A stretch of DNA of 34,375 nucleotides from an uncultured Eubacteriales bacterium (GTDB lineage Bacteria; Bacillota; Clostridia; Christensenellales; CAG-138). This document shows, in pieces, positions 1,038-32,752 of the stretch. Both the position numbers and the translations under genes were made by a program. The stretch covers positions 1 through 34,375 of the forward strand of contig CADAPG010000008.1 in the NCBI GenBank assembly GCA_902789675.1, read 5' to 3'. The notes under the pieces were generated by a model. That model was not told the origin of the DNA, did not search any database, and saw only the letters and a list, made by a program, of their open reading frames with translations. How positions within the stretch are numbered: position 1 is the stretch's first letter; each line of letters opens with the position of its first letter.

Positions 1038-1041
1038 AACG

Positions 1042-2791: not shown

Positions 2792-4602
2792 TAGGAACGA
2801 TCCTCGACCGTAAATACCGGATCGTTGAGCTGATCGGCAGCGGCGGAATGGCGCACGTCTATAAGGCGATCAACATGAGCAATCGCCGTTACGTCGCAAT
2901 CAAGATGCTCAAAGAGGAATTCCGTGAGGATGCGGAATTCCTGCGCCGTTTTACACGCGAAGCGAACGCGATCCTTGCACTTTCTCACGAGAATATTGTT
3001 CGCGCTTACGGAGCGGGCACGCATAACGGCATGCCGTACCTTGTTATGGAGTACGTTGAGGGACGTACGTTAAAGGATCTGATTGAAAAGAACGGCGCTT
3101 TGCCGGTCCGTACCGCGATCGGTATCACCTGCCAGATCCTTGACGCGCTTTCCGCAGCGCATCAGCATGGGATCATTCACCGTGACGTCAAGCCTCAGAA
3201 CGTGATCGTTACGGACAAAGGCCGCATAAAGCTTGCTGACTTCGGGATCGCACGCGAAGCAAAGGCCTCAACCGTCACTTTTTCCGGTCAGAAAGTGCTT
3301 GGCTCTGTCCATTATATCTCGCCAGAGCAGGCTAAAGGCGTGATTGCAACAGAGCAAAGCGATCTATACTCCGTCGGTGTTTGCCTGTATGAAATGCTGA
3401 CCGGGACCGTTCCGTTTGAAGCGGATTCCACCGTCAGCGTTGCTCTGATGCATTTGCAGGAAAAGCCGGTGCCGCCGATCGAGCTTGTACCGGACCTTCC
3501 GAAGTCTCTGAACGACATCGTACTGAAATCGCTCGAAAAAGCGCCGGAAAACCGTTACGCCACCGCTCGCGCTATGCGTTCGGATCTTGTTCGATCTTTA
3601 TCCGATCCGAACGGTACGTTTGTCAACGATCTTGATGAAAACGGGCAGAAGGATACGCATCGTCCATCCATCTATGTTCTGATCGCCATGTGTGTCTTTT
3701 TGCCGATTCTGCTGATCGGAATCTTTGTTTTGATTTATGCGACATCCTGCAGAAGCGAAGTACAACCGATAACGGAAGATGAAAACACTGAACATGTTCC
3801 GATCGTCGAAACAACCTATTCGGAGATAACTCCGGCACCGACCGAGATTACAGTCACAAGTGAAAAAGTCCCGAACCTTCTCGGATATTCGCTTGACGAT
3901 ACTTTGCGCATTCTGTATACGGAATACGGCTTCACAAATCTGATCGTTGAATTTACAGATCAGGTACAGGAAGGTACGCAGGTCAATACGGTAGTATCTA
4001 TTTCCGCGTCCGACGGCATTAACGCGATTCTGTATGAGCAGGCAGAGATTACACCGTCTCCCACTGCACCGGATTTCACTGTTTCCCCCACGCCGGAAGA
4101 TACGCCCGAGCCGACAACAGCAGCCACTTCTACCTCTGATTCCGAAACCGTTGTTGCAGAAACGACTGCCGTACCGGAGGAGGATAGTGTTTCCTATGCA
4201 GAGACCCCCTCTACGATCTATACCATCGAGGCATCGGACGTAACGCCTTCACCGGAACCGTCGCACATGCCTTCCCGTTCCGATATTGCCTTCGCAACCG
4301 ATACGCCGATTCGTCTGAAGATCTATCGGAAATCTCTCGGCTCTTATAAGGCCGATATTTCCTTTACGCTCTCTCTTGAAAACGATGAACCCGTCAATCT
4401 TGTAGAGATCGGCTATGAAACGGTGAATTTTGAAGATATCCCGTTCCGCGTGATTCTGCGTTCGCAGCAGCTTCAGAAGCAATCAACCGAAATAACGGTT
4501 ACCGCAACGGTCCGCAGTCACGAACCTGTGACAAGAACTCTGAACTTATACGTCAACGGTGAAGTCCGATCTTCGCCGCAGACGATCACATTTGCCAAAT
4601 GA
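2788..4602 (+). CDS. prkC: Membrane PASTA-domain serine/threonine kinase (PrkC/PknB type)
   Basis: This 604-residue kinase is expected to sense cell-wall fragments outside the cell and phosphorylate division and wall enzymes inside. The kinase domain spans about residues 9-270: glycine loop GSGGMAHV (17-24), Lys39, catalytic HRDVKPQN (131-138) and DFG (151-153). One transmembrane helix lies at about 295-318. Outside is a single recognisable PASTA repeat (about 359-408, starting VPNLLGYS), then a Thr/Pro/Glu-rich stalk (about 420-500) and a C-terminal beta-rich domain (about 505-604) that I cannot name. Relatives usually carry several PASTA repeats. Start and stop overlap both neighbours by 4 bases (ATGA), as in the conserved phosphatase-kinase-rsgA order. 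Confidence 0.94.
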   Translation: MIGTILDRKYRIVELIGSGGMAHVYKAINMSNRRYVAIKMLKEEFREDAEFLRRFTREANAILALSHENIVRAYGAGTHNGMPYLVMEYVEGRTLKDLIEKNGALPVRTAIGITCQILDALSAAHQHGIIHRDVKPQNVIVTDKGRIKLADFGIAREAKASTVTFSGQKVLGSVHYISPEQAKGVIATEQSDLYSVGVCLYEMLTGTVPFEADSTVSVALMHLQEKPVPPIELVPDLPKSLNDIVLKSLEKAPENRYATARAMRSDLVRSLSDPNGTFVNDLDENGQKDTHRPSIYVLIAMCVFLPILLIGIFVLIYATSCRSEVQPITEDENTEHVPIVETTYSEITPAPTEITVTSEKVPNLLGYSLDDTLRILYTEYGFTNLIVEFTDQVQEGTQVNTVVSISASDGINAILYEQAEITPSPTAPDFTVSPTPEDTPEPTTAATSTSDSETVVAETTAVPEEDSVSYAETPSTIYTIEASDVTPSPEPSHMPSRSDIAFATDTPIRLKIYRKSLGSYKADISFTLSLENDEPVNLVEIGYETVNFEDIPFRVILRSQQLQKQSTEITVTATVRSHEPVTRTLNLYVNGEVRSSPQTITFAK

Positions 4603-5474
4603 CGGAACCGGGATTACTGATAAAAGGGATCGGAAGCTTCTATGAAGTTCTGACGGAGAACGGAGAGCTTGTAACGAGCAAGGCGCGCGGTACGTTCCGA
4701 CGAAACGGACTTGTGCCGACAGTCGGTGACCATGTTCTGATCGAGCGAAAAGAACAAGGCTATGCGCAGCTGTGCGAGATTCTTCCTCGCAGGAATCTGC
4801 TCGTTCGCCCTCCTGTCGCAAATGTCGATCAGCTGATGATTGTCGTCTCTGCCTCCGTTCCCGCGCCGGATTGGCTCCTTGTCGATCGTATGATCATTGC
4901 TGCAAAGCGCATGTGCATCAATCCCATTCCGGTCTTAAACAAAACAGACTGCGCCGATCAGACGATCCTTCAAGCATTTCTTGCGGATTATAAAATGTTC
5001 GATACGCTGTTGGTAAGCGCTCGGACAGGCGAAGGAATGAATTCGCTGCAGGCGCGTCTCAAAGGAAAAGTAACCTGTTTCGCAGGACAGTCTGCAGTGG
5101 GAAAGTCTTCACTGCTCAACGCTTTGATTCCTGATCTCTGCCTTGAAACCGGAGATCTTTCTCGGAAAACAGAACGCGGAAAACACACGACACGTCATGC
5201 TGAGCTGTGGCCATACGAGAGCGGTGCTGTACTTGATACACCGGGATTTTCCATGTTTGAGACCGATTGTCTTGAACAGAACGAACTGAATGAATGCTAT
5301 CCGGAGTTTTCGCTTGCCGATCCGTGTCGTTTTCCGGGATGTATGCATCTGTCAGAACCCGATTGCGGGGTCAAGCCTTTGCTTGCGTCCGGAACGCTGT
5401 CAGAAGGACGTTATGAACGATATCGTGAGATTGCTTTGGATTATCAACTAAGGAGGAAGCACAGATATGATTAA
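4599..5474 (+). CDS. rsgA: Ribosome small-subunit-dependent GTPase RsgA
   Basis: RsgA is a circularly permuted GTPase that acts late in 30S subunit maturation. The permuted order is visible: G4 NKTD (114-117) comes before G1 GQSAVGKSS (163-171) and G3 DTPG (213-216). An N-terminal OB-fold (about 1-70) precedes the GTPase domain, and a C-terminal zinc knuckle has C243, C248, H250 and C256. The length of 291 residues is normal. Its ATG overlaps the stop of the kinase gene, and its last 8 bases overlap rpe. This matches the usual prkC-rsgA-rpe order of Firmicutes. Confidence 0.96.
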   Translation: MTEPGLLIKGIGSFYEVLTENGELVTSKARGTFRRNGLVPTVGDHVLIERKEQGYAQLCEILPRRNLLVRPPVANVDQLMIVVSASVPAPDWLLVDRMIIAAKRMCINPIPVLNKTDCADQTILQAFLADYKMFDTLLVSARTGEGMNSLQARLKGKVTCFAGQSAVGKSSLLNALIPDLCLETGDLSRKTERGKHTTRHAELWPYESGAVLDTPGFSMFETDCLEQNELNECYPEFSLADPCRFPGCMHLSEPDCGVKPLLASGTLSEGRYERYREIALDYQLRRKHRYD

Positions 5475-7144: not shown

Positions 7145-9001
7145 TTAGTTGAAGTCGACGATCACTTCATTAAAGTTTTTATTTCGTCCGTAATTGACTG
7201 CCCACGGAGAGCTGCTCCAACCGGTAGCCGTCGGGGCGAACGGAGTTGTAAAGTTCTTAACTTTATTGTACTCAAACTCCTTTGCAAGTTCGATCGCCAG
7301 AGTCTGGACCTCTGCAAGTTTGCTCAGATAAGATTGACCTACGGAATTCAAAGAATTGCTGCTGCCGTTTCTTGCTTTCTTTGCCTGCTTATCCGCTTCC
7401 TTATGCAGCGAGTTCAACTCGCTGACACAAGTCTTATACCGCTCAAAGAGATCTCGCTGCTCTTGCGTATACTTGCGCGTTTTGCCGTCCGATTCAAACA
7501 TGATCCTGAAACCTTGATATCCTATCGAACGGGCGGAATCCGAATCCCCTCCGTCATCAGGCGGATCGGTCGGAGCAGGCGGCTGCGTGGGCGGGTCGGT
7601 CGGCGGAGGCGTCGGCGGATCGGTCGGAGGCGGGGTCGTCGGATCGGTCGGCGGAGGCGTATCCGGGTCCGTCGGCGATTCTGTCGGCGTATTCGTCGGT
7701 TCATCGGAAGGCGACGGCGAAGACGTATCTTCCGGGAGCTTATTATCCTCGTCGATCAGCTTTTGCACATATTTTGTAAGAGGATCAAGCATATCCTTAT
7801 ACTTATCGTAAAGCATATCGCACCAACGATAACGCGCATATGACAGTGTATACTGACCGTATCGCTTTGCACTTACGTTATAGACTTTTTTGATGATATC
7901 GACTCGGTTTGACTGATCGGTAAAGCAGAAATTCCACTGAAACAGCGAGTGTGAAGATCCGCTCATGGAATACATGCCGATGTTTTCCGGATCTAAATTG
8001 TAAGCAAACGCAGCCAGTGCAGCTGTCTGACCAAACGTACAGTTCGTAAATAAATCTCCATCAAACGTGTCGATGATCTCGGGAATCTGTGTAATCAGCT
8101 GATCTGCTTTCATTTGCTTGAACAAAGCGATCAGCATACGCTTCTGGCGGTTCACACGGTTTGAATCACCCTGTTCGTTTGCCGGAAGACCGTTCTGCGC
8201 CTTTCTGACGCGGCAATAATCAAGGAATCCCTGTCCGTTAACATGCTGCATGCCCTTTTCATACGAACGTCCCTGGATCTTGAAGCTGATGTCCATATCG
8301 TATTCCAATCCGCCGCACAGATCCACAAGATCCTTGAGCGAAGTCATGGTCACAGCATAATAGTAATCGACGTCAATTCCTCCGAGCATCCATTCCGCTG
8401 CGTCACAGACCTTTTCAAGTCCCTGTGGATTCACGGTCCCGTCATCGTTATACAGTCCGCCGCCGCAATTCAGTGAAGCGTTCAGCTTGTAAATTCCTTT
8501 CACGTCCGGAATATTCGCATAGGTATCACGCGGGAGCGAGATCAGATCGGCGCGGTTCTCCTCGAAATTAACAGCCAGAACGATCATTACGTCCGAATGC
8601 CATTCCTTTTTTCCGCTCCATGTCTCACGTTCCGTGGAATAGTCAACACCGATCAAAAGGATATTGACAATATCCTTCATCATGGATGTATCTGCCTTTT
8701 CCATCAATTCTTTATACGGATCAATCGGAACCTCGGTCGGTTCAGGCGTAGGTGCCTCCGTATTCTCTGGTTCGGAAGTAGGCGCGGATTCGGGTTCCTC
8801 CGTTGTAATAACGATAAGGTTCGGATCCGTCGTAGGAGCAGGCGTTTCCCGTCCCTCACCGGTACGATTCCGAGAGCTACATGAACCGTTTCGGAAAGCA
8901 GATCCGCTTCCCAGAGAATTAAACAGCAATGCCGCGGCAACGCCCAACGCAATTGCAGAAATCGCGATCGATATAAAAAGAATGATCCTTTTCTTATTCA
9001 T
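7145..9001 (-). CDS. LytR-CpsA-Psr (LCP) family envelope protein with Pro/Thr stalk and C-terminal extension
   Basis: LCP enzymes transfer undecaprenyl-linked glycopolymers to peptidoglycan on the outer face of the membrane. This 618-residue protein has an N-terminal membrane anchor (about 5-28), a Thr/Pro/Glu-rich spacer (about 50-93) and the LCP domain (about 112-400), with NILLIGVDYS, D137 in HSDVMIVL, SLPRDTY (155-161) and the arginine-rich segment around NRVNRQKR (281-288). A Pro/Thr/Asp repeat stalk (about 427-484) and an unassigned, mostly helical domain (about 490-618) follow. That tail makes it much longer than usual family members. GAAAGGA precedes the ATG by about 8 bases. It is divergent from the glycosyltransferase operon. 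Confidence 0.9.
   Translation of the reverse strand: MNKKRIILFISIAISAIALGVAAALLFNSLGSGSAFRNGSCSSRNRTGEGRETPAPTTDPNLIVITTEEPESAPTSEPENTEAPTPEPTEVPIDPYKELMEKADTSMMKDIVNILLIGVDYSTERETWSGKKEWHSDVMIVLAVNFEENRADLISLPRDTYANIPDVKGIYKLNASLNCGGGLYNDDGTVNPQGLEKVCDAAEWMLGGIDVDYYYAVTMTSLKDLVDLCGGLEYDMDISFKIQGRSYEKGMQHVNGQGFLDYCRVRKAQNGLPANEQGDSNRVNRQKRMLIALFKQMKADQLITQIPEIIDTFDGDLFTNCTFGQTAALAAFAYNLDPENIGMYSMSGSSHSLFQWNFCFTDQSNRVDIIKKVYNVSAKRYGQYTLSYARYRWCDMLYDKYKDMLDPLTKYVQKLIDEDNKLPEDTSSPSPSDEPTNTPTESPTDPDTPPPTDPTTPPPTDPPTPPPTDPPTQPPAPTDPPDDGGDSDSARSIGYQGFRIMFESDGKTRKYTQEQRDLFERYKTCVSELNSLHKEADKQAKKARNGSSNSLNSVGQSYLSKLAEVQTLAIELAKEFEYNKVKNFTTPFAPTATGWSSSPWAVNYGRNKNFNEVIVDFN
7577..7660 (-). repeat. 24-base coding repeats encoding TPPPTDPx units
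   Basis: Within the LCP gene, codons 448-475 read as about three and a half imperfect copies of an 8-residue unit (TPPPTDPT, TPPPTDPP, TPPPTDPP, TQPPAPTD). Unit length is 24 bases, so copy-number changes by slippage or recombination would keep the reading frame and alter only stalk length. Confidence 0.75.
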
Positions 9002-9010
9002 ATCAATAAT

Positions 9011-9050
9011 CCTTTCGGAAATCCTTTATTATATTGTACACTCTTTGTTG
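9011..9050 (-). promoter_or_regulatory. Candidate promoter of the LCP gene
   Basis: On the minus strand a perfect TATAAT (9028-9033) lies about 27 bases before the LCP start codon. The -35 region at 17-base spacing (TTCTTA) is weak. The 229-base gap to the glycosyltransferase start is AT-rich and holds the two divergent promoters; I see nothing else in it. Confidence 0.5.
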
Positions 9051-9193
9051 TAAGAATTCCATTGAAAACAGTATTCGTTACGAACATTTTACAAAAACGA
9101 CGCAAATAATGATTTACAAACGAAAACAGTACTCTCTTTTTGAAATCTCTGAGAAATTCGTCAAAAATATTGCTTTTTATTTCTGTAAAACTG

Positions 9194-9202
9194 TGATATA
9201 AT
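9194..9202 (+). promoter_or_regulatory. Extended -10 promoter of the glycosyltransferase operon
   Basis: TGATATAAT at 9194-9202 is a perfect extended -10 element (TGnTATAAT), 28 bases before the ATG at 9231. No good -35 box is seen at normal spacing, which extended -10 promoters can tolerate. AGGAGG follows shortly before the start codon. Confidence 0.6.
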
Positions 9203-9230
9203 GTAAACTGATATTTTAGGAGGTTAGCGC

Positions 9231-10397
9231 ATGATCGTTGTTATACCTGCGTATGAACCGGATGAAAAGCTTCTGGGCGTACTCAAAGACTTTACAGAAC
9301 AGACATCATTTCCTATTGTCGTCGTGAACGACGGCAGCAGTGAAAACTGCATTCCGATCTTTGAAGCGGTGTGTGCGTTTGAGCGGGTCACCCTTCTCAC
9401 ACACGAGGTGAACAAAGGCAAAGGCGCTGCATTGAAAACCGCTTTTGCATATATTGCAGAGCAATTTCCGGCTTCCGAAGGGATTCTGACCGTTGATGCA
9501 GACGGTCAGCATTTGATGCCGGATTGTATGAATGTGTGTTCCGCCTACGAAGAACATCCCGACGTTCTGATTACGGGATCCCGTCGTTTTAAAGGAAAGG
9601 TCCCGATCCGCAGCCGTATCGGAAACAGTATCACACGCGGTGTTTTCCGGCTGACAACCGGAAAGCGGGTTTACGATACCCAGACCGGGCTCAGAGCCTT
9701 CAGCGTCAGTCGTGTTTCCGAAATGCTTTCGTTGCATGGAGATCGTTATGAATATGAGATCCATCAGCTGCTGCATTGCTGTACCAAAGGTACGGGCGTT
9801 TATGAAGTACCGATCGAAACAGTGTATATCGATGATAACAGTTCTTCCCATTTCGATACGCTGCGAGATTCCGCTAAAATCTATAAAGTCATCTTTAAAT
9901 TCCTCGGTCCGACGTTTCTGAAGTTTATGTCGACGTCTTTTGTGAGCTTTCTGATCGACTTTCTCAGCTTCTGTCTGATCTTCTACGGGACAGTCGCCAT
10001 ATTCGGCGGATTTCATGTGGCAAAGGAAATGTTCTCTTTTCAGCGTGAAGTCTCTCAGAAATGGTCTGAAACGCTGCTTGCCCTGAATCCGATCATCTTT
10101 GTAGGAGGCGGATCCGTGCTTCGCATGGTATCGCTGGTTTTGGCAAGAGTTATTTCCGGCTTCTGCAATTATCTGCTGAACCGTCGATTCGTATTTGACG
10201 GTTCACGCCACGAACGAAATCTGCTGAAATATGCGCTTTCGGCGATTTTTGTCTTGCTTCTGAACTGGCTGTTCATCGAATTGTTTACGCGTGCCGGCAT
10301 ACCTGCATGGCTTGCCAATATTCTTTCTCAGTTGATCTGCTATCCGGTTTCCTTTATGCTGCAGCGCACATTTGTGTTCCGTGGTAAAAACCAGTGA
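9231..10397 (+). CDS. GT2 glycosyltransferase fused to a GtrA membrane domain
   Basis: The 388-residue protein joins a dolichol-phosphate-mannose-synthase-like GT2 domain (about 1-210; VVIPAYEP at the start, VVNDGSS, and the metal-binding TVDADGQH with the DxD-type motif at 89-91) to a GtrA domain (about 229-384, four hydrophobic helices). GT2 enzymes of this group load a sugar onto polyprenyl phosphate, and GtrA domains are thought to help flip such lipid-linked sugars. The GtrA part has an extra polar loop of about 45 residues (about 255-298) after the first helix. AGGAGG sits 8 bases before the ATG. It heads an operon with the phosphodiester glycosidase; the sugar is unknown. Confidence 0.88.
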   Translation: MIVVIPAYEPDEKLLGVLKDFTEQTSFPIVVVNDGSSENCIPIFEAVCAFERVTLLTHEVNKGKGAALKTAFAYIAEQFPASEGILTVDADGQHLMPDCMNVCSAYEEHPDVLITGSRRFKGKVPIRSRIGNSITRGVFRLTTGKRVYDTQTGLRAFSVSRVSEMLSLHGDRYEYEIHQLLHCCTKGTGVYEVPIETVYIDDNSSSHFDTLRDSAKIYKVIFKFLGPTFLKFMSTSFVSFLIDFLSFCLIFYGTVAIFGGFHVAKEMFSFQREVSQKWSETLLALNPIIFVGGGSVLRMVSLVLARVISGFCNYLLNRRFVFDGSRHERNLLKYALSAIFVLLLNWLFIELFTRAGIPAWLANILSQLICYPVSFMLQRTFVFRGKNQ

Positions 10398-10406
10398 TCA
10401 AAGACT

Positions 10407-11783
10407 ATGTCGGAAAGGAAAGCTGTTCTCTCAAATAAAACACTGACGGCGATTCGTTTGATCGCCGTCATTCTTCTGAACCTCGGGATCGTGTTTTCCG
10501 CGGTCTATATTCTGTTCCACCTGCTGGATTACTATAATCCGCACGGCTTTATTTCGCATAACATGCGCTGGCTTCCGATCGCGATCCCGGTATTGTTTGT
10601 TTTGTCCGTTCTTCTGTACGATTTATTGTTGATCGTCGGCGCATTCCGAAAGCATTATTTTCATAAAAGCAGAATGCTGTTTATCATCCTTTGCGATGTG
10701 ATTCTGTTTTGCGCGCTATCTTTGACTATGTATTTAAAAACATGTACGACTTCCCTTGCAGAACACAACGCAATCGAAGAATATCGCCTTCCGACGCCCG
10801 TTCCCACCGAAAGCCCGACGTATTTGCCCGCTCCCGGATTTGACGACGGAACGACGCCGACAATCGAAACGCAGGATCCCGAATTATCATCCGATGCACC
10901 GGTATCGACGCCTGCACCCGTCATTCCTTTGGACAGCAAATTCCCGGAAAAGTACTCCGACACCCCGTCTGTTCAGACTTATGACAAGTCCAACGTCGTC
11001 GAAACGCTTTCAGACGGTACACAGAAGGCTTTGATTTACTCCTACAGCGGGAAAAATGCCGCTGTAGATATCTATCACTATAAAAAGGGAAAACTTGAAT
11101 ATCAGCTTGCGGATATCTATGTTCGCGATATTAATTGCTTTACGACCAATTTCAGCCTGTCCTTCAGGAGAAACGTAAAGACGCAGGTCTATGCCTCGCA
11201 GATCAACGCGATCGTTTCCGTGAACGGAGATAACTTTAATTCCGGAAAGATCGAAGACGGCATCATTATCCGAAACGGTGCACAGCTGTATCCGAAGGAT
11301 GGTTCGCGTCAAACAAGGTTCTCCCGAGACCTTTGTGTTCTGTACAGCGACGGGACCATGCAGGTTTATGACTGCGTCACGGATCGCATCGACTATGACG
11401 AGATCATCGGACGCTATCCGCGTCAGGCGTTCTATTTCGGTCCGAAGCTTCTGAACGACGACGGAACCGCAAAAACGAAATTCAACTCCAACCTGGGAAA
11501 GATCAATCCTCGTACGGCTCTCGGCTATTATGAACCGGGTCATTACGCTTTGGTCGTCGTCCTCGGCACGCGTGAAATGATCGATTACGGCGGAAGGAAT
11601 CGCGGCAACGGAAAATCTCCCGGAATGACGCTGATCGAGTTGTCTGCTTTATGCGAACAATTGGAGTTTACGATGGCATACAATCTCGACGGCGGCGGTT
11701 CCTCCAGCATGGTATGGAACAAAACCGTATTCGGACATAACGATCGGACACACAGCGACATCCTTGCCGTTGTGGATCACTGA
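10407..11783 (+). CDS. Membrane-anchored phosphodiester glycosidase (NAGPA domain)
   Basis: NAGPA-domain enzymes cleave sugar phosphodiesters such as GlcNAc-1-phospho linkages. This 458-residue protein has three predicted transmembrane helices (about 14-38, 54-78 and 88-110), a Thr/Pro-rich extracellular stalk (about 128-180) and a C-terminal catalytic domain (about 200-458) with SVNGDNF (271-277), NPRTALGYY (367-375) and YNLDGGGSSSM (425-435), which are family signatures. The start codon follows the glycosyltransferase stop by 9 bases and has only a weak ribosome binding site, suggesting reinitiation. The neighbours point to processing of a lipid-linked or wall-linked glycopolymer, which is an inference. 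Confidence 0.87.
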   Translation: MSERKAVLSNKTLTAIRLIAVILLNLGIVFSAVYILFHLLDYYNPHGFISHNMRWLPIAIPVLFVLSVLLYDLLLIVGAFRKHYFHKSRMLFIILCDVILFCALSLTMYLKTCTTSLAEHNAIEEYRLPTPVPTESPTYLPAPGFDDGTTPTIETQDPELSSDAPVSTPAPVIPLDSKFPEKYSDTPSVQTYDKSNVVETLSDGTQKALIYSYSGKNAAVDIYHYKKGKLEYQLADIYVRDINCFTTNFSLSFRRNVKTQVYASQINAIVSVNGDNFNSGKIEDGIIIRNGAQLYPKDGSRQTRFSRDLCVLYSDGTMQVYDCVTDRIDYDEIIGRYPRQAFYFGPKLLNDDGTAKTKFNSNLGKINPRTALGYYEPGHYALVVVLGTREMIDYGGRNRGNGKSPGMTLIELSALCEQLEFTMAYNLDGGGSSSMVWNKTVFGHNDRTHSDILAVVDH

Positions 11784-11795
11784 AGGAGGCGCGCT

Positions 11796-12167
11796 ATGAA
11801 GAAAAGAATTCGTTCGGCAGCGTTCATACTGGCGCATGTCGGTCTGCTTCTTTCGATCGTTTATTTGATATTCTGTCTTGTCTGCAACGTCAAGGCACAG
11901 AATGCTGCCGATTCACCAAACGAAAAAGATCTGTATCTTTCGCAAGCGATCGGCGAGTATGATTTTTCTGTCTATACCGTGGGAAGAGCGCTTTCCGACA
12001 GCAATGATCCGGCAAAGGAGAATCTCTTCATTACGCTCGATCTGATTATCCCGATCCTCTTCCTGGTATCCGGCGTATTGCTGCAAATCGCTGTTGTGCA
12101 CAAAAAACGTAAACACCCGGCTTTGCCTCAGCAAAAGCCTTCGCAATCTATCAATCACAGGAGGTAA
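11796..12167 (+). CDS. Small two-helix membrane protein of unknown function
   Basis: I do not recognise this 123-residue protein. It has a transmembrane helix at about 8-30, an extracytoplasmic segment of about 50 residues, a second helix at about 82-101 and a basic cytoplasmic tail rich in Lys, Arg and Gln. The positive N- and C-termini suggest both ends are inside. AAGGAGG lies 7 bases before the ATG, and the gene sits between the NAGPA protein and the aminopeptidase with gaps of 12 and 2 bases, so it is surely translated as part of this operon. Confidence 0.75.
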   Translation: MKKRIRSAAFILAHVGLLLSIVYLIFCLVCNVKAQNAADSPNEKDLYLSQAIGEYDFSVYTVGRALSDSNDPAKENLFITLDLIIPILFLVSGVLLQIAVVHKKRKHPALPQQKPSQSINHRR

Positions 12168-12169
12168 GT

Positions 12170-13480
12170 ATGATTCGTTCCGATCTTGACCGTACCAATG
12201 CGCTGCTTGATTTCATCGAGCATTCCCCCGTCTGTTTCGCCGCCGTATGCGAAGCGCAGAAAATGCTGGAATCCAATGGCTATTCCCGTCTCTCCTTTCA
12301 GGATGTATGGGATCTTACACCCGGCGGAAAGTATTACATCACGCGAAACGGTTCTTCCCTGATCGCATTTTGCGTTCCGCAGGATGCGCAGCCCGGCTTT
12401 ATGATCGCCGCGAGCCACAGCGATTCGCCGTGCTTCAAGCTGAAAACAAACAGCGAAGTCATGATGGCGGATCGTTATCTGAAGCTGAACACCGAAGGTT
12501 ACGGCGGCATGATCATTTCGAGCTGGTTTGACCGTCCGCTTTCCCTTGCGGGACGTGCGATCGTAAAGAACGGTTCTGCGTTCGAAACGCGGGTCGTGAC
12601 GTTTGACCGCGATCTTTGTCTGATCCCGAACGTCTGCATCCATTTCAACCGCGAGATCAACAATGGTTATAAATACAACAAGGCGGTCGATACGCTTCCC
12701 CTGCTCTCCAATACCAAAGAGCCCGGAATGGTGAAAAAACTGGTTGCGGAACGTCTCGGCGTGGAACCGGACGCAATCGTCTCTATGGATCTTTATGTCA
12801 TAAACCGTACGCGCGGTTCCGTCTTCGGTGCAGATGATGCATTTTTCTGTGCGCCGCGCATCGACGACCTGCAGTGTGCCTATACGACGCTTGCCGGTTT
12901 GTTGGAAGCGGAAGCGCCGAAAGCGATTCCCGTCTATGCCCTGTTTGACAATGAAGAAGTAGGCAGCGAGACGAAGCAAGGCGCAGCGAGTATGTTCCTG
13001 TACGACGTGCTGACCCGCGTTGCTGCGTTCTATGGACATACGCTTTCCGAAATGCTTCCCGCATCCTTGATGCTCTCGTGCGACAACGGACACGCGCTGC
13101 ATCCGAACCATCCGGAGCTCAGCGACGCAAAGAACGCGCCTCATCTGAACGGCGGCGTCGTGATCAAGCACAACGCAAACCAGCGCTATGCGACCGACGC
13201 GCTTTCCGAAGCATTGTTTGCCGAGATCTGCGCGCGTGCCGATGTTCCCGTTCAGCACTTTGCGAATCGCAGCGACATTGCGGGCGGCGGAACCCTGGGC
13301 AGCATCAGCAACACGCGCGTTTCGATGAAGACTGTCGATATCGGGCTTGCGCAGCTTGCCATGCATTCCGCAGTTGAGACCGGCGGTATCAAAGATACGG
13401 ATTATATGGTCCGCGCAGTCAAGGCATTCTACGAAAGCGCACTGCAGATCAAGGACGACGGCGCGATCGTACTGGCATAA
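12170..13480 (+). CDS. M18-family zinc aminopeptidase
   Basis: This 436-residue cytosolic metallopeptidase belongs to the aspartyl-aminopeptidase family (M18), which removes N-terminal residues, often acidic ones, from peptides using two zinc ions. Ligands and catalytic residues are visible: H83 in ASHSDSP, D232 in PRIDDLQ, E262 and E263 in FDNEEVGS, D305 in SCDNGH, and H399 near the C-terminus. SDIAGGGTLGS (368-378) is also typical. AGGAGG is 7 bases before the ATG. It ends the operon and is followed by a terminator. Its biochemical link to the envelope genes upstream is not evident. Confidence 0.94.
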   Translation: MIRSDLDRTNALLDFIEHSPVCFAAVCEAQKMLESNGYSRLSFQDVWDLTPGGKYYITRNGSSLIAFCVPQDAQPGFMIAASHSDSPCFKLKTNSEVMMADRYLKLNTEGYGGMIISSWFDRPLSLAGRAIVKNGSAFETRVVTFDRDLCLIPNVCIHFNREINNGYKYNKAVDTLPLLSNTKEPGMVKKLVAERLGVEPDAIVSMDLYVINRTRGSVFGADDAFFCAPRIDDLQCAYTTLAGLLEAEAPKAIPVYALFDNEEVGSETKQGAASMFLYDVLTRVAAFYGHTLSEMLPASLMLSCDNGHALHPNHPELSDAKNAPHLNGGVVIKHNANQRYATDALSEALFAEICARADVPVQHFANRSDIAGGGTLGSISNTRVSMKTVDIGLAQLAMHSAVETGGIKDTDYMVRAVKAFYESALQIKDDGAIVLA

Positions 13481-23902: not shown

Positions 23903-24460
23903 TCATGAAGCCTCAGAAGCATACTGCTCCGTCAGCATATCCCGGATCCAAGCGAGGACTTCGTATTCGTCAAGCGGTACGTCGTCCCCGAGTACCTGCC
24001 GGATCTCGCGCGTGTCGAGCTCGACTGTGCGATCCGGCAAAGTATGCCTGAAAAGAAAATCCGTTTTGGCGCTTCCGCGTATCAGCAGCGTGATCGTGGA
24101 AACCACGTCGCCGAGCGGTGTAAAGTCAAGGTGCGTTTTATCGAATGTCGCCGATATTTCCGTTCCGCAATGCTCCGGATCGACCGAACGTTCCGTTGAA
24201 GTGATCGAAAGCGTCCCCCCCGTCTGCTCCGCGGCAAGCTTCAGCAGCGGAATTCCCATGCCGACCTTGCGTGTGGTGCGCGTAGTTGAGAACGGATCGA
24301 CGACTGTTTTCAGGAAATCTTCCGACATCCCGTATCCATTGTCCCGGATCGTGAGCTTCAGAGAAGTGTCCGTCTCGTCAAGCAGAATCTCGATCAGCGA
24401 CGCTTCCGCACGGATCGAGTTCTGCGCGATATCGAGAATGTTCAGACTGAGCTCCTTCAC
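23903..24460 (-). CDS. Stand-alone GHKL (histidine-kinase-like) ATPase of the hydrogenase operon
   Basis: This 185-residue protein is a HATPase_c domain with N box DIAQNSIRA (N14), G1 DNGYG (40-44) and G2 GMGIP (67-71). There is no dimerisation/phosphoacceptor His domain, sensor domain or membrane segment; about 60 further residues follow the ATPase core. The start is GTG at 24460, sharing GTGA with the stop of the PHP gene and preceded by GGGAGG; a longer reading to 24727 is only PHP coding DNA in another frame. Genes like this accompany [FeFe] hydrogenases in other Clostridia. A regulatory role is inferred, and the partner is unknown. Confidence 0.85.
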   Translation of the reverse strand: MKELSLNILDIAQNSIRAEASLIEILLDETDTSLKLTIRDNGYGMSEDFLKTVVDPFSTTRTTRKVGMGIPLLKLAAEQTGGTLSITSTERSVDPEHCGTEISATFDKTHLDFTPLGDVVSTITLLIRGSAKTDFLFRHTLPDRTVELDTREIRQVLGDDVPLDEYEVLAWIRDMLTEQYASEAS

Positions 24461-25176
24461 AGCGTTCCCTCCCGCAGTTTGCAAAACAGTGCATGCCGTA
24501 CAGTATCCGGATCGGTCGCATCGGTATCCAGCGTCAGCGTTCCGCCTGCTTCTCCGATTTCCCAAAGCCGGTGTGCGTCCGAACAGACCACGATCGTTCT
24601 TCCCTCTGCAAGCTGCGCGTTCTCGCGATCCCGCAACTCTGCGATTCGGAAAACAGGTTCCGGCGGAAACGAACCGAGCACGGCGAGCAATCCGTTCGCG
24701 TCGCGGTCGATGTGCGCCGGCCAACATACGCCGTTGTACGCCTTGACCAGGTCGGCTGCCGAGGAAAGATCCAGATCCGTCGCGACAGGCAGAAAATACG
24801 GATCCTCTCCGATCTTTTCGTCCCGTTCGTTCAGGATCGGCTGTTCGCCGAAGATCTCAACGCGGTTTTTGATCTTCATCCGATGTTCTTTGACCTCCTG
24901 TCCGAAAGCGAGCGCTTCCGAAAGCGTTTCAAAGATGCATAGCAGATGAATATCCTCCGCCGTGGTCAGCTCCATACCTGCGATCGGCACGATCCCGTAT
25001 TCCCCGCATGCCGCGAAAAACGCAGGACAGTTGTCGACCGTATTATGGTCGGTCAGCGCAACGATGCCGAGTCCGTTCAGATGCGCCATCCCCGCAATGT
25101 TGCAGGGCGTCATATCCATGTCTCCGCAGGGAGACAGGCATGAATGCAGATGCAGATCGTATGAAACCGTCCTCAT
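24457..25176 (-). CDS. PHP-domain metal-dependent phosphoesterase
   Basis: The 239-residue protein is a PHP-domain hydrolase with metal-binding motifs DLHLHS (7-12), TDHNT (42-46), E69 in GMELTT, H77, H155 and SDAH (199-202). These are the residues of the trinuclear metal site in PHP phosphatases. The substrate is unknown; nucleotides or phosphorylated metabolites are possible. Its ATG overlaps the stop of the DRTGG gene by 4 bases, and its stop overlaps the GHKL ATPase start, so all three are coupled. Position in a hydrogenase operon suggests removal of a signal or of a phosphate used in regulation, which is a hypothesis. Confidence 0.86.
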   Translation of the reverse strand: MRTVSYDLHLHSCLSPCGDMDMTPCNIAGMAHLNGLGIVALTDHNTVDNCPAFFAACGEYGIVPIAGMELTTAEDIHLLCIFETLSEALAFGQEVKEHRMKIKNRVEIFGEQPILNERDEKIGEDPYFLPVATDLDLSSAADLVKAYNGVCWPAHIDRDANGLLAVLGSFPPEPVFRIAELRDRENAQLAEGRTIVVCSDAHRLWEIGEAGGTLTLDTDATDPDTVRHALFCKLREGTL

Positions 25177-25502
25177 CTGAGCAATGCGCCGACTTCGACG
25201 CAGACCTCAAATGTGGATTTCTCGGTGAGCAGCAGGTTCAGTCCGTGCGTTCTCGCCGCTTTCACGGCGTTCTCGTCCGGACGAACGCCTTCCGAAAAAA
25301 CGATGCAGGCGCAGTCCGTCAGCTGTCCGACCGCGGCAACATTCACGTTTGACATGATCGTTACCCAGCAATCGCCGCTTTCGGCGCGTCCCATGACCCA
25401 GCTCAGAAGATCCCCTGCATATCCGCCGGTGATCTCACGATCGCCTTCGGACAGCAGAAAAGGTTCATAACCGGTTTTTTCGATCAGATCGTTTACCGTC
25501 AT
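25173..25502 (-). CDS. DRTGG-domain protein, second copy
   Basis: This 109-residue protein is a single DRTGG domain, recognisable from ITGGYAGDLLSWVMG, the central hydrophobic strands around NVAAVGQLTDCACIVF, and the C-terminal LLLTEKSTFE segment. The DRTGG domain is found near CBS domains and in phosphotransacetylase-like proteins and is suspected to bind a regulatory ligand. I chose ATG 25502 because its paralogue at 27235 begins in the same way (MTxxxI); a GTG at 25514 overlapping the upstream stop (GTGA) is a good alternative. It couples the HydS-type gene to the PHP gene. Confidence 0.8.
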   Translation of the reverse strand: MTVNDLIEKTGYEPFLLSEGDREITGGYAGDLLSWVMGRAESGDCWVTIMSNVNVAAVGQLTDCACIVFSEGVRPDENAVKAARTHGLNLLLTEKSTFEVCVEVGALLR

Positions 25503-25510
25503 ACGCTTTC

Positions 25511-26794
25511 TCACTTTCCGTCATCGCGTTCCAGTTCTCTGAGAAGCTCGCGCATCCGAATCACACAATCGTCCAGCTTGGATTCGCCCCGCACAACGTC
25601 CTCCGCATGCGCGCGGCAGGTCGGTGCGCCGCAGGAACCGCAATCCATGCCGGGCAGGAGCTTATAGATCCGTTCGATCTCCGCCATCATACGGAACGAA
25701 TGCAGACGATCGACGCCGAGAATCTCCGCCGAGCTGTACTCGCCCGGTTCAACGGTCATGACGTCGTTCGGAATCGGTTCATCCTCCGCGAGAATGACAT
25801 GGTTCTGTGCAACCGGCATATACCGCTGCAGCGCACGGATTCGTACGCGTGCGATATACGGGTTCTCAACAGCCATGACGCCGCCGACACAGCCGCCGGG
25901 ACACGCATTCATTTCGACGAATTTCAGATCCGGGAAATGTCCCATCTCGATATCGTCAAGTACGCGAATGATATTCTCGATGCCGTCCGCCGCAAGATAA
26001 TGATCGTTCATCAGCGCGCTTGCTTCGCCGCCGGATGACGACCAGCTCAAGCCGATCATGCCCGATTCCGAAGTCACATCCGGGATCTTCGCGCGATCCA
26101 TTTTGGACAGGACACGGAAATAAATATCGCTCATGGAGACGATATAATCCACGTAGCACTCCTTGTCCGAAGGCGTGTTCTTGACCCAGCTGACTTTTGC
26201 GGGACACGGCGAGATAAATACCGTCTTTACATCCTCCGGTTTCAGCTCGGGATGCTGTTTCAGCGCCCGCTCCTTTGCGAGCTTTCCCGCGACTTCGATC
26301 GGCGGAGAGATCGGTACCATCTTGTTTCGCAAAGACGGAAACCGCAGCGAAATCAGCCTGACGACGACCGGACAGGCCGTACTGATGAACGGCGCGTGCG
26401 ACATACCCATGCGTTTCATATAGGTGCGGGTATAGTCTGTGACAAGTTCCGCTGCTTTCGCGACCTCGAACACGTCGTTGAAGCCGAGATTGATCAGTCC
26501 CTGCAGCAAATAATCCGTATCGTCCAGATTGGCAAACTGCCCGAACAGCGACGGCGCGGGAAGCGCGATCAGGTACTTCGAGTGATCGATTGAATCCCAT
26601 TCGTCAAAGTTGGCGCGTTTTGCCTTGTACGGACAGTGGCGGATGCACTCGCCGCAGTCGATGCAGAGGTTCGGATTGATACAAGCCTTGCCGTCGCGGA
26701 TGCGGATCGCCTGCGTGGGGCAGCGGCGCAAGCAGGTGGTACACCCCTTGCACTTGGTCGCATCTAATGAAACGGAATGCTTGTATACGATCAT
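25511..26794 (-). CDS. HydS-type protein: ferredoxin, [FeFe] hydrogenase-like domain and C-terminal [4Fe-4S] domain
   Basis: This 427-residue protein starts with a two-cluster ferredoxin domain (C15, C18, C21, C25; C44, C47, C50, C54), followed by a shortened H-cluster domain with all four ligand positions: STACP (C141), SPCPAK (C197) and NACPGGC (C298, C302). The residue before C141 is Ala140, where active hydrogenases have the proton-transfer cysteine. This is a hallmark of sensory HydS proteins. A C-terminal Fe-S domain has C385, C388, C393 and C410 (MDCGSCGAPTC). No PAS or kinase domain is fused. TAAGGAGG before the ATG overlaps the stop of the preceding ATPase gene. A sensory role is inferred from family and context. 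Confidence 0.88.
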   Translation of the reverse strand: MIVYKHSVSLDATKCKGCTTCLRRCPTQAIRIRDGKACINPNLCIDCGECIRHCPYKAKRANFDEWDSIDHSKYLIALPAPSLFGQFANLDDTDYLLQGLINLGFNDVFEVAKAAELVTDYTRTYMKRMGMSHAPFISTACPVVVRLISLRFPSLRNKMVPISPPIEVAGKLAKERALKQHPELKPEDVKTVFISPCPAKVSWVKNTPSDKECYVDYIVSMSDIYFRVLSKMDRAKIPDVTSESGMIGLSWSSSGGEASALMNDHYLAADGIENIIRVLDDIEMGHFPDLKFVEMNACPGGCVGGVMAVENPYIARVRIRALQRYMPVAQNHVILAEDEPIPNDVMTVEPGEYSSAEILGVDRLHSFRMMAEIERIYKLLPGMDCGSCGAPTCRAHAEDVVRGESKLDDCVIRMRELLRELERDDGK

Positions 26795-26803
26795 GGTTCC
26801 TCC

Positions 26804-27238
26804 TTATGCCGATCTGAATTTCATCTCGATCGTCGTGCCGACGCCGACGACGGAATCGATCTTGAGTTCATCCGAGTAGCGTTTCATGTTCGGCAGACCC
26901 ATGCCTGCGCCGAAACCCAGCGAACGAATGTTGTCCGGAGCGGTCGAATACCCTTCCTGCATCGCAAGATTGACGTCTTTGATGCCGGGGCCGACATCCT
27001 TCAGTACCACCGTAACGCAATCGGGTGTAACGTACACATCCGCATCCCCGCCTTTGGCGTGAATGACCATGTTGATCTCGCCCTCGTACATCGCAACGGA
27101 AATTCTGCGGATCAGATCGGGATGATATCCCATCTGCCGCAGCATCCTTTTGACCTGCACGGATGCTTCGCCGGCGGAAGTAAAGTTGTTTCCGTCCACA
27201 TCATAGTGAAAATGAAGTGCGCCGTTATCTTCCGTCAT
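26804..27238 (-). CDS. RsbW-like stand-alone GHKL ATPase
   Basis: This 144-residue protein is a small ATP-binding domain like anti-sigma-factor kinases: N box with E52 and N56 (AMYEGEINMVIH), G1 DVGPGI (81-86) and G2 GFGAGMGLPNM (108-118). It lacks a phosphoacceptor His and any sensor domain. Its ATG overlaps the stop of the first DRTGG gene by 4 bases, and its stop is 9 bases before the HydS-type gene. RsbW relatives phosphorylate a serine on a STAS-domain antagonist; no such protein is encoded here, so its target, if any, must be elsewhere or be one of its neighbours. Confidence 0.84.
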   Translation of the reverse strand: MTEDNGALHFHYDVDGNNFTSAGEASVQVKRMLRQMGYHPDLIRRISVAMYEGEINMVIHAKGGDADVYVTPDCVTVVLKDVGPGIKDVNLAMQEGYSTAPDNIRSLGFGAGMGLPNMKRYSDELKIDSVVGVGTTIEMKFRSA

Positions 27239-27573
27239 CGTCCCAAACCGCCTTCGTATAGTTTTCCGCTTGCCTCATACATGGTCAATTGTGTTTCTAG
27301 CAATGCGATGTGATTCTCGGCAGCCAGACGTTTGATCTCCTCCGTTGCGGTCTTTCCGCGAACAATGATGATGCAGCGCATGTCCTGCATATGCGCCGTG
27401 CGTACGATCTGAGGGTTCAAAAGACCTGTCAGAAGTACATCACGGTTTTCTGCAAAGGCAAGCACGTCGCTCATCATATCGCTGCCGAAAGCACCGGTCA
27501 TTTCTTCATCGATCTGATCGGGCTCGGCGTAAACTGCGGCGTTGATTCGTTCGGCGATCTCCCGGATAGTCAT
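27235..27573 (-). CDS. DRTGG-domain protein, first copy
   Basis: The 112-residue protein is a single DRTGG domain (GAFGSDMMSDVLAFA, then NPQIVRTAHMQDMRCIIIV and a C-terminal LLETQLTMYEASGKLY segment). It is a diverged paralogue of the copy at 25173. AAAGGA lies before the ATG. It follows hydC by 16 bases and overlaps the RsbW-like ATPase gene by 4 bases, so a DRTGG-ATPase pair is made together. Ligand and function are unknown. Confidence 0.8.
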   Translation of the reverse strand: MTIREIAERINAAVYAEPDQIDEEMTGAFGSDMMSDVLAFAENRDVLLTGLLNPQIVRTAHMQDMRCIIIVRGKTATEEIKRLAAENHIALLETQLTMYEASGKLYEGGLGR

Positions 27574-30139: not shown

Positions 30140-30586
30140 TCACAGATCGGAAAGCCGACCGAGCGTCTCCGGATTCTTCTTCGGTTCCTTCAAATGGATG
30201 ATCGCAGCATCGGGTATGATCGTGCGAATCTGCTGCTCCGCTTTTGCTGCTTCGCCGCTGCCGGAATACAGGACAAACGTGACCTGTTTCCCTTTCAGAT
30301 CCGTTTCCTTCAAGACGGTGTTGATCGGGCAGGAAAGACGTCCGTTCCATACCGGAGAGCCGATCACGATTTCGTCGAAGGCGGAAACATCCGTATTGTA
30401 ATTCTTCAGGGGTTCACAATACCTGCGTCCGGCGTTGAACCCGCACTGCATGATCTGAAAAAAGAACTTCTTGGGCGGTTTCTTCGACGGTTCAACCTTG
30501 CGGATCTCGTAACCTTTTTCTTTGAGGTATGCGGCAACCGCGTCGCCGTTTCCGGAAAGGCTGTAATAGATGAACAGTTTTGCCAT
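30140..30586 (-). CDS. Flavodoxin-like protein
   Basis: The 148-residue protein has a flavodoxin fold: first strand LFIYYSLSGNGD (4-15) with the phosphate-binding loop for FMN, then IVIGSPVWNGRLSCPI in the second FMN loop and VTFVLYSGSG in the third. It probably binds FMN and transfers electrons, or acts as a small NAD(P)H-dependent flavoprotein. AGGAGG lies 8 bases before the ATG at 30586; an in-frame ATG at 30604 would overlap the previous gene and lacks a site. Its role among three hydrolase genes is unclear. Confidence 0.84.
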   Translation of the reverse strand: MAKLFIYYSLSGNGDAVAAYLKEKGYEIRKVEPSKKPPKKFFFQIMQCGFNAGRRYCEPLKNYNTDVSAFDEIVIGSPVWNGRLSCPINTVLKETDLKGKQVTFVLYSGSGEAAKAEQQIRTIIPDAAIIHLKEPKKNPETLGRLSDL

Positions 30587-30600
30587 AACAAGATCCTCCT

Positions 30601-31692
30601 TCATTTTAATATGAAATGCATTTCGACCGGGTTGTGATCGGAGTACGCAAAATCCGTGTCGATGACGTTCGCATCGAGGACCTCGATGTTGTCGGTCACC
30701 ATAAATCCGTCAAGCGTCAGCCGGTACCTTCCTTCAAGCGGCGTACCGTCCGCATTGCGCCAGCTTGCGACCGGGTTCGATTCGTCGACCGGCCGGATCA
30801 GCGTAACATTCGTTCCCCGAAACATCTCTTCGGGAATGGACTGCGCCCACGTGTATTCGACGTCGGGTTTGCCGAAATACACGGAGGAATCTTCGAGCAC
30901 GTCCTTGTTGAAATCGCCGCCCGCGATGCAGTAATTGCCCTTTTCGTACTCGCTCTGCATATCCGCGATCAGAAGCGTGAGCTGTTCCGTCGCGATCGTG
31001 CCGTCGGACGTATATGCGGACAGATGCAGGTTATAGAGCACGAGCTCCGCACCGTTTTGAAGCGCGATGCGGTTCCTGCTGTAGCACCGGTCGAGGTCGA
31101 GGAGCTTGGTAAGCCCGCTTTCAATCGGGAGTTCCACGCGCTCGGCCGAAACGATCGGCGCCTCCGAGAACGTCATCAGCCCTGCTCTCGCAACGCCCGA
31201 CGGCTGCGTGATCGGATAGAACAGAAACGGCGAATCATAGTTCTGCGCAAAGGTGTATGTCATCCACCCGATCGCCTCGGTCAGATACGGACGTTCGTCT
31301 ACATGATAGCTTCTCGTCGAGTCGATGTCGATCTCCTGGATGAGCAGCAAGTCCGCGTCCTGGTTCTTTAAAAAGTCTGCAATGTTTCTGAGGTTTTTGA
31401 CCAGCCGTTCCTTCGACCATGCCCACGCGCGGTCGCCGCCGTCCATAAAGAATCCGAAATCGGGCTCGTATGCGCCGAAACCGATGTTGTAGGATACGAC
31501 CTTGTATTCCGTTCCCGTTTCCAGCGTGCCGGACGTCGTTCCCTCGACCGGAATCGGCTGATCGCCGATGCGGTGGAAGCTGATGAGCACGTACGCAACG
31601 TAGCCGACCAGCAGAAGGATCAGCGCAAGCAGAATGATCCCGATGATCTTCAAAGCCTTTTTCAACGGCTTTTTTGAGGCTTCTTTTTTCAT
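30601..31692 (-). CDS. Membrane-anchored endonuclease/exonuclease/phosphatase (EEP) family protein
   Basis: The 363-residue protein has one N-terminal transmembrane helix (about 15-37) and an EEP domain (about 63-363), the fold of DNase I, inositol phosphatases and sphingomyelinases. Catalytic motifs: N69 in VVSYNIGFG, E120 in LIQEIDID, N221 and H223 in YNLHLSA, D260 and N262 in AGGDFN, D352 and H353 in SDHNP. The topology places the catalytic domain outside the cell, which favours a phospholipid or other extracellular phosphoester over DNA repair. GGAGAG lies before the ATG. It is the second gene after the PLC-like gene. Confidence 0.86.
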   Translation of the reverse strand: MKKEASKKPLKKALKIIGIILLALILLLVGYVAYVLISFHRIGDQPIPVEGTTSGTLETGTEYKVVSYNIGFGAYEPDFGFFMDGGDRAWAWSKERLVKNLRNIADFLKNQDADLLLIQEIDIDSTRSYHVDERPYLTEAIGWMTYTFAQNYDSPFLFYPITQPSGVARAGLMTFSEAPIVSAERVELPIESGLTKLLDLDRCYSRNRIALQNGAELVLYNLHLSAYTSDGTIATEQLTLLIADMQSEYEKGNYCIAGGDFNKDVLEDSSVYFGKPDVEYTWAQSIPEEMFRGTNVTLIRPVDESNPVASWRNADGTPLEGRYRLTLDGFMVTDNIEVLDANVIDTDFAYSDHNPVEMHFILK

Positions 31693-31718
31693 GATATGAT
31701 CTCTCCGTTTTGTATCTT

Positions 31719-32723
31719 TTATCGGTTGAAGTTCGTCTCATAGATGCGCGCGGCGATCGCAGGCGAGCCGAAGTCCACGACGATCCAGCCGTTCAGCGGA
31801 TCGGAAAGCCCCATCAGCTCCGGATTCAACGTTTTGGCGAGGCTGTACAGATGTCCGAATGCGCCGCTGCCTTTGGTGGACAGGAAGCTGATCGAAAGGT
31901 GCGTCTCATCCGCTTGCGCGACTTCAAGTCCTTTCCGGAAGGCGTTCAGCTTGTCCGGTGCGTCGTATTCGTAACGGTCCTGAACGATCAATGTATATGT
32001 ACCGTTAAGATGCGAGGCAGCATTTTGTGTAACGTCATCATGCCCGTTCTGCGTTTGCCAGTAGCACGGGAGTCCGACGGTCGGGACCGGCATAGAATCG
32101 TCCTCATAGTGACGCGTCAGAACGATCTTTCCGCGTGCTTCACCGACCGTAGGTATGCAGTCGGTCAGAAGCCATGCATCCGGATTCTGTTCAATATAAG
32201 CAGATAACAATGTTTCAAACTCGGCAGGCGTTTCGCTCCCGTACTCCTGCTTGACTGCAAATACGATCGTTTCCGTCGGATGCGCTTTCAAAAACGCATA
32301 GCAATCGGACAATACATCGTCGAGATACAGGGATGCAGCCCACGGCCAGCCGGACTTGGTGCAATTTGTGAACCCGTGCATCAGTTTCAGTTTGTCGCTG
32401 TTTGCTGCAAGGCGGATATCCAGATATCGGAAGCCTGCGTCGAGCTGTTCCGCGATCGTCAGCGACTGACATCTTGTGATATAAGCAAGCTGAACACTCC
32501 GCGTCGCGGCATCGTGCGTACCCGGTAAAACGACTTCCGAAAGCTGCATGCCGTCGTCAAGTCTCCCCATCCAATCGCCCGATCCTGCAACAGCGGTTTT
32601 ATCAACGGTTTCCAACGCCGGAATGACATACATCATAACGCCGAAGATAAGAACGATCAGCGTAGGAACGATCCACAAAATATGCAGGAGACGCTTCGCT
32701 TTTCCCGATTTTTTGGTTTCCAT
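31719..32723 (-). CDS. Membrane-anchored PI-PLC-like phosphodiesterase
   Basis: The 334-residue protein has an N-terminal transmembrane helix (about 12-36) and a phosphatidylinositol-specific phospholipase C X-type domain (about 50-320). The two histidines of the acid/base pair are H70 (LPGTHDAAT) and H116 (LMHGF); FRYLDIR (98-104) is typical. Bacterial enzymes of this type cleave phosphatidylinositol without calcium, but many homologues have other or unknown substrates. GGAGG lies 8 bases before the ATG at 32723; an ATG at 32738 is further from a usable site. It is the first gene of the four-gene operon. Confidence 0.86.
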   Translation of the reverse strand: METKKSGKAKRLLHILWIVPTLIVLIFGVMMYVIPALETVDKTAVAGSGDWMGRLDDGMQLSEVVLPGTHDAATRSVQLAYITRCQSLTIAEQLDAGFRYLDIRLAANSDKLKLMHGFTNCTKSGWPWAASLYLDDVLSDCYAFLKAHPTETIVFAVKQEYGSETPAEFETLLSAYIEQNPDAWLLTDCIPTVGEARGKIVLTRHYEDDSMPVPTVGLPCYWQTQNGHDDVTQNAASHLNGTYTLIVQDRYEYDAPDKLNAFRKGLEVAQADETHLSISFLSTKGSGAFGHLYSLAKTLNPELMGLSDPLNGWIVVDFGSPAIAARIYETNFNR

Positions 32724-32752
32724 TCGGCAGACCTCCAAATGATTGTTGAGAA

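Follow-up and report, generated by a model that had tools for sequence, protein, structure and literature searches.

A five-gene cassette around a putatively sensory group D [FeFe] hydrogenase is maintained as a block in Clostridia

The stretch of DNA analyzed here (the window; 34,375 nucleotides) covers positions 1 to 34,375 of contig CADAPG010000008.1 of assembly GCA_902789675.1, from an uncultured Eubacteriales bacterium of the GTDB lineage CAG-138, and it encodes a putatively sensory [FeFe] hydrogenase, HydS, within the operon of a second, catalytic [FeFe] hydrogenase. From comparisons across Clostridia it is well supported that HydS and four neighboring genes, in the order DRTGG1-GHKL1-HydS-DRTGG2-PHP, form one functional unit. 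The original prediction had described a module of six genes that included a further ATPase gene, GHKL2. This was not upheld, as GHKL2 groups with hydC, hndB, hydB, and hydA and also occurs without the other five; the unit is therefore a five-gene cassette.

To score presence and absence, 196 genomes were drawn evenly from the class Clostridia. Group D HydS orthologs, with E values of 1e-77 or lower, were clearly separated from the longer, PAS-type-sized homologs, which scored 1e-39 or weaker. A group D HydS ortholog was found in 99 of the 196 genomes. GHKL1 was identified in 98 genomes, 97 of them shared with HydS, leaving two genomes with HydS only and one with GHKL1 only, in which the contig ends just where HydS would come next. 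All 96 genomes harboring PHP also carried HydS (three HydS only, none PHP only). As had been predicted, co-occurrence thus far exceeds chance, with HydS, GHKL1, and PHP tracking together and the cassette order kept. Fisher's exact test gave a P value of approximately 1e-52, a figure that ignores kinship among genomes and, because these are related, overstates the co-occurrence. The stronger point is that the whole block is present in some species and absent from others of the same genus (genera g20, g29, g41, g90, and g18); in these genera HydS and GHKL1 vary together, as does PHP except in one genome (G037).

Gene order was examined in the window and 99 fetched Clostridia loci, and the five genes were contiguous in a single order in 87 of these 100. 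Most of the 13 exceptions run off contig ends, while a few are real. Two loci of one family (L044 and L050) have approximately 4 kb inserted between HydS and DRTGG2, which in L044 contains genes that by eye encode a DeoR-type regulator, an aldolase, and a sugar-kinase-like protein. A further 80 loci from a named-genome collection of 85 thousand species, mostly metagenome-assembled genomes of ruminant-gut Clostridia together with some Atopobiaceae, repeat the cassette order with a single rearranged exception. No natural fusion of cassette genes was seen in the 100 annotated loci, in agreement with the earlier claim that the parts are separate proteins. Outside these groups, all six genes were identified in Parabacteroides distasonis (Bacteroidota; L245, positions 8632 to 12403), with no hydABC beside them; its GHKL1 and HydS share 51% and 29% identity, respectively, with those of the window, and the H-cluster cysteines of its HydS are all retained. 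The plasmid label of this record is doubtful because the record also holds gyrA. A scan of IMG/VR with HydS gave no match, and PADLOC gave no credible defense match.

Among the 99 cassette-carrying genomes, GHKL2 was detected in 97 and HydA in 94. HydA was found in 73 genomes lacking the cassette, and GHKL2 was found without detected HydS in nine. As HydA often occurs without the cassette and the cassette rarely without HydA or GHKL2, dependence runs from the cassette to the hydrogenase. The dominant order in Clostridia is HydC-GHKL2-HndB-HydB-HydA, and the commonest full form has the cassette immediately before HydC. Overall, about two thirds of loci have the cassette close to hydABC, and in about a fifth the two are apart. 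Its predicted insertion inside the hydrogenase operon is true for the window, which together with its nearer relatives has the cassette between hydC and GHKL2, but elsewhere the cassette more often precedes hydC. Other placements were after the hydABC operon, facing away from it, before rnf, before pyrimidine genes, or alone. An rnf operon lies downstream in approximately seven loci (L084, L104, and L121 among them), with GHKL2 between the two in L084, hinting at a ferredoxin/NADH target wider than HydABC. Pyrimidine genes, pyrK/pyrD/pyrE-like by eye, follow the cassette in eight loci (L101 and L107 included), and they include one for an Fe-S/FAD electron-transfer subunit.

In the window, the six open reading frames predicted between hydC and hndB-hydB-hydA are all present on the minus strand as placed, and transcription would run in one direction from 28087 to 19934, with a largest intergenic gap of 34 bases. 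A promoter-like site lies upstream of hydC (28154 to 28126), and terminator-like sites in the operon region were not more frequent than in shuffled sequence. Also on the minus strand are hydC (28087 to 27590; NuoE-type [2Fe-2S] subunit, PF01257, 6e-54), the gene for an HndB/Acetobacterium woodii HydD-type thioredoxin-fold protein (23868 to 23497; PF01257, 8e-6), hydB (23481 to 21688; NADH/FMN subunit, PF01512 and PF10589), and hydA (21676 to 19934; catalytic [FeFe] hydrogenase, NF040763 at 897 bits against a cutoff of 765). NF040763 is the family of NADH-dependent, group A6 enzymes. Genes for PI-PLC-X-type, endonuclease/exonuclease/phosphatase-family, and flavodoxin-like proteins are encoded adjacently (30140 to 32738, minus strand). 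The start of GHKL2 (24460 to 23903, minus strand; PF02518 HATPase_c, 2e-12) was corrected to the GTG at 24460, giving 185 amino acids in place of the over-long 274-amino-acid frame listed. For DRTGG2, the most likely start is the ATG at 25502, which is backed by homologs; a longer frame opens with a GTG at 25514. Overlaps of 4 bases are certain at three junctions (DRTGG1/GHKL1, DRTGG2/PHP, and PHP/GHKL2), a fourth at HydS/DRTGG2 is conditional on the GTG at 25514, and GHKL1 and HydS are separated by 9 bases; the statement that most junctions overlap by about 4 bases is therefore correct. GHKL2 has a histidine-kinase-type ATPase domain and a conserved C-terminal extension, with no phosphoacceptor domain. 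Profile searches of the six proteins found neither HisKA nor receiver domains, as the original prediction had it; specifically, Pfam detected no HisKA in GHKL1 or GHKL2, and there is no regulator gene within the window operon.

Domains were assigned to the window proteins with Pfam and NCBIfam profiles, and residue conservation was counted over 180 HydS, 176 GHKL1, 173 DRTGG1, and 168 PHP sequences. HydS (26794 to 25511, minus strand; 427 amino acids) matches PF02906 (Fe_hyd_lg_C, 7e-32), Fer4 (two [4Fe-4S] clusters), and the FeS family PF04060. It is composed of two N-terminal [4Fe-4S] clusters, the H-domain, and a C-terminal [4Fe-4S] cluster with a Cx2Cx4Cx16C motif, and no PAS domain was matched by Pfam. 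All 16 cluster cysteines surveyed are conserved, with C141, C197, C298, C302, those from C15 to C54, C385, C388, C393, and C410 kept in 177 to 180 of the 180 sequences. When equivalence to the hydrogenase CpI was read by eye from motifs, the position of C299, the proton-relay cysteine, was Ala in 161 of 180 sequences and that of M353 was Ser or Thr in 179; by the same reading, Ala140, Ser195, and Asn296 of the window protein replace CpI C299, M353, and M497. Substitutions at C299/M353-type positions reduce the activity of ordinary hydrogenases (PMC10055695). Placed by these motifs, HydS fits the group D (M2e) class of putatively sensory [FeFe] hydrogenases. Its proposed role as the sensory input is borne out as far as the group D signature reaches, with sensing itself presumed.

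GHKL1 (27238 to 26804, minus strand; 144 amino acids) matches HATPase_c_2 and, among named families, the anti-sigma F factor TIGR01925 (8e-16), and it matches SpoIIAB in the PDB at 4e-12. Glu52 and Asn56, which make up the SpoIIAB E-x3-N motif, are invariant in all 176 sequences, as are Asp81, Gly83, Gly85, Gly110, and Gly112 of the DxGPG and GxGxG boxes. GHKL1 is, judged from these residues, an intact ATPase of the SpoIIAB/RsbW/RsbT type and a predicted Ser/Thr switch kinase. The earlier description as RsbW-like was right as to this family, but the protein is of SpoIIAB/RsbT type rather than specifically RsbW type. Among plasmid-borne genes that are not part of the cassette, those closest to GHKL1 are one from a STAS-STAS-ATPase (stressosome-like) operon in Phaeobacter and SpoIIAB, at about equal scores. 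Membership with RsbT rather than SpoIIAB was considered and not adopted, as the two could not be separated by score. Within 8 kb of HydS in the 100 loci, no STAS substrate or sigma-factor gene recurs.

The two DRTGG proteins are paralogs (hhalign, 1e-23) with a common Asp-x-x-Ser motif. DRTGG1 (27573 to 27235, minus strand; 112 amino acids; PF07085, 5e-7) opens the cassette and has Ser35 in all 173 sequences and Asp32 in 172. DRTGG2 (25502 to 25173, minus strand; 109 amino acids) scores below the profile cutoff (8e-4), and Asp31, Ser34, Thr48, and Asn54 are invariant in it. Its AlphaFold2 model (predicted local distance difference test score, 97.7) matches 2ioj with a Foldseek template modeling score of 0.83, and its fold neighbors are the DRTGG domains of AF1212 and of a CBS-pyrophosphatase (3l2b/3l31) and the HPr kinase N-domain. 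On the strength of this model, DRTGG2 is a DRTGG domain despite its profile score. A STAS-like fold was rejected, since the significant Foldseek matches were to DRTGG domains, followed by the HPr kinase N-domain. The Asp-x-x-Ser motif at the helix start is an attractive candidate for a phospho-acceptor or ligand site. In the last cassette protein, PHP (25176 to 24457, minus strand; 239 amino acids; PF02811, 2e-9), the four metal-binding motifs of the family are all intact, with His9, His11, Asp43, His44, Glu69, His77, His155, Asp200, and His202 kept in 167 to 168 of 168 sequences. Its structural relatives are EndoQ, RNase AM, and TM0559.

The simplest reading that uses all of the invariant sites is that the cassette encodes a soluble H2- or redox-sensing switch-kinase relay around the group D sensory hydrogenase, and we rate the chances of this as about even. 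H2 or the redox state would set the state of the H-cluster and the shape of HydS, which would gate GHKL1 as the Ser/Thr switch kinase, either directly or via the DRTGG pair. DRTGG1 and DRTGG2 would be the switch partners, acting as ligand-holding or phosphorylated adaptors, and PHP would reset the switch by stripping off a phosphate or, alternatively, a nucleotide ligand. The NADH/ferredoxin-linked HydABC would receive the output by way of either GHKL2 or some unlinked factor, and GHKL2 (HydE) itself, and in some lineages possibly Rnf, would also be among the targets. We infer every signaling step here, namely, H2 sensing, kinase activity, the DRTGG role, the PHP substrate, and the output. A narrower version, in which the DRTGG pair replaces STAS substrates, PHP replaces PP2C, and an [FeFe] hydrogenase serves as the sensor of a partner-switching relay, is unlikely; if true, it would be a form of bacterial signaling that is neither two-component nor stressosome.

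Several observations weigh against the relay. The C-terminal cluster of TamHydS, a group D enzyme of Thermoanaerobacter mathranii, is not reduced by H2 (PMC13104023). The motif Ser may equal the Ser/Thr of ordinary DRTGG domains, in which case a phosphosite is not required, and because such domains can carry Ser/Thr near that position the Asp-x-x-Ser phosphosite is a hypothesis only. One complete genome, G037, lacks PHP, and many loci lack an adjacent hydABC. No STAS, sigma, PP2C, response regulator, or target gene is linked to the cassette within 8 kb of HydS in the 100 loci, so the output is a guess. Finally, in a covariation analysis (mutual information with average product correction, 129 to 176 paired sequences, clade-permuted null) no cassette pair rose above the null, and the highest-scoring pairs involved HndB.

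The best-surviving alternative, unlikely in our estimate, dispenses with protein phosphorylation: the ligand of the DRTGG pair would be an adenine nucleotide or a similar signal, which PHP degrades or trims, HydS would supply the redox input, and GHKL1 and GHKL2 would be ATP-state-dependent binders and not kinases. The occurrence of DRTGG domains within the nucleotide-regulated part of CBS-pyrophosphatases (3l2b/3l31) is consistent with this, as are the nucleic-acid and nucleotide phosphoesterases among the relatives of PHP (EndoQ, RNase AM, TM0559, and 2yb1, which has AMP) and the location of the invariant Ser34, Thr48, and Asn54 of DRTGG2 at strand ends and helix starts. However, it is the CBS domains, not DRTGG, that bind nucleotide in CBS-pyrophosphatases, and the SpoIIAB-type kinase Glu retained by GHKL1 in 176 of 176 sequences would be superfluous for binding alone. 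A role in the assembly, activation, or repair of HydABC, with the ATPases as chaperones and HydS as an electron donor or cluster checker, is improbable. It would suit the proximity to hydABC of about two thirds of loci, and a role in assembly or signaling has been suggested for the GHKL2-like HydE (PMC3315566), but HydA of the same family does without the cassette in 73 genomes and the cassette is also found next to rnf or pyr genes or by itself. Less probable again is that GHKL1 is an anti-sigma factor acting on transcription via an unlinked sigma factor, as SpoIIAB does on SigF; although anti-sigma F factor is its best named family, the cassette has no recurrent sigma or STAS gene beside it, unlike spoIIAA-spoIIAB-sigF, and the Phaeobacter stressosome-type gene is equally close. 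That HydS is a catalytic accessory hydrogenase among unrelated passengers of a conserved operon is very improbable, since, although TamHydS worked as a hydrogenase in vitro (PMC8163306), the active site of HydS is of the sensory type and the genes co-occur obligately and are gained and lost as a block across genera, even apart from hydABC.

The label of group D enzymes as sensory is more than a decade old and was given on weak grounds, namely, nearby kinases and the lack of a proton relay, and no path linking such a sensor to an output was known. The five-gene block points to a likely relay made up of a kinase-type ATPase, a pair of paralogous adaptors, and a phosphoesterase, and reduces the question to a few small soluble proteins. 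The cassette is present in about half of the Clostridia genomes sampled, the relatives of the window are mostly rumen and gut species, and H2 handling in the rumen and gut shapes methane formation and fermentation yield.

The sensor class itself was known already: group D was classed as sensory by Carere in 2012, citing earlier work, from its proximity to protein kinases and bifurcating hydrogenases (PMC3561251). The same paper assigns Cthe_0335 of C. thermocellum to group D. A literature search that excluded subscription papers found no publication linking DRTGG to this hydrogenase system, and neither the five-gene unit nor its obligate inheritance and DRTGG/PHP/kinase makeup appears to have been described. 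TamHydS resembles the window HydS in having two N-terminal [4Fe-4S] clusters, the H-domain, a C-terminal [4Fe-4S] cluster, and no PAS domain (PMC8163306, PMC13104023), and it likewise lacks the group A proton-relay residues (PMC8163306). A histidine-kinase-like ATPase gene adjoins it; in the published passage, only this flanking ATPase and an AraC regulator are named, and the DRTGG pair and PHP are unmentioned (PMC8163306). The closest published gene list is that of Halanaerobium hydrogeniformans Halsa_1862-1871, which reads hydA, hydB, ferredoxin-like, kinase, NuoE, PHP, hydrogenase-like, Fe-S, anti-sigma/Ser-Thr kinase, and an open reading frame; it concerns one organism, with no functional analysis and DRTGG unrecognized, and there the cassette lies before hydC (PMC4237134). 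GHKL2 fits as the counterpart of A. woodii HydE (Awo_c27000) by description and operon position. HydE resembles the ATP-binding domains of histidine kinases, belongs to the hydABCDE operon, and is absent from the purified, active enzyme (PMC3315566), whereas in the window the cassette intervenes between hydC and GHKL2.

Group C (M2f) proteins, such as HydS of Ruminococcus albus and HfsB of Thermoanaerobacterium, are also putative H2 sensors encoded beside a hydrogenase and phosphorylation machinery (PMC11837493), but they have a C-terminal extension with PAS and a SpoIIE/PP2C phosphatase gene and lack the DRTGG/GHKL1/PHP set. The genome from which the window comes also encodes, on contig C105 (L134, positions 802 to 5467), a second HydS, of group C type and 559 amino acids long, together with a SpoIIE/PP2C phosphatase and a further multicluster [FeFe] hydrogenase, and both putative types of H2 sensor therefore coexist. 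The PP2C of the group C operon was considered as the missing phosphatase and rejected, its occurrence in 34 of 99 cassette genomes and 21 of 97 others not differing significantly (P = 0.057). With SpoIIAB and the stressosome protein RsbT, GHKL1 has in common the fold, the E-x3-N motif, and the ATP-binding boxes; the cassette differs from those systems in having no STAS partner or sigma gene, and DRTGG proteins stand in that place.

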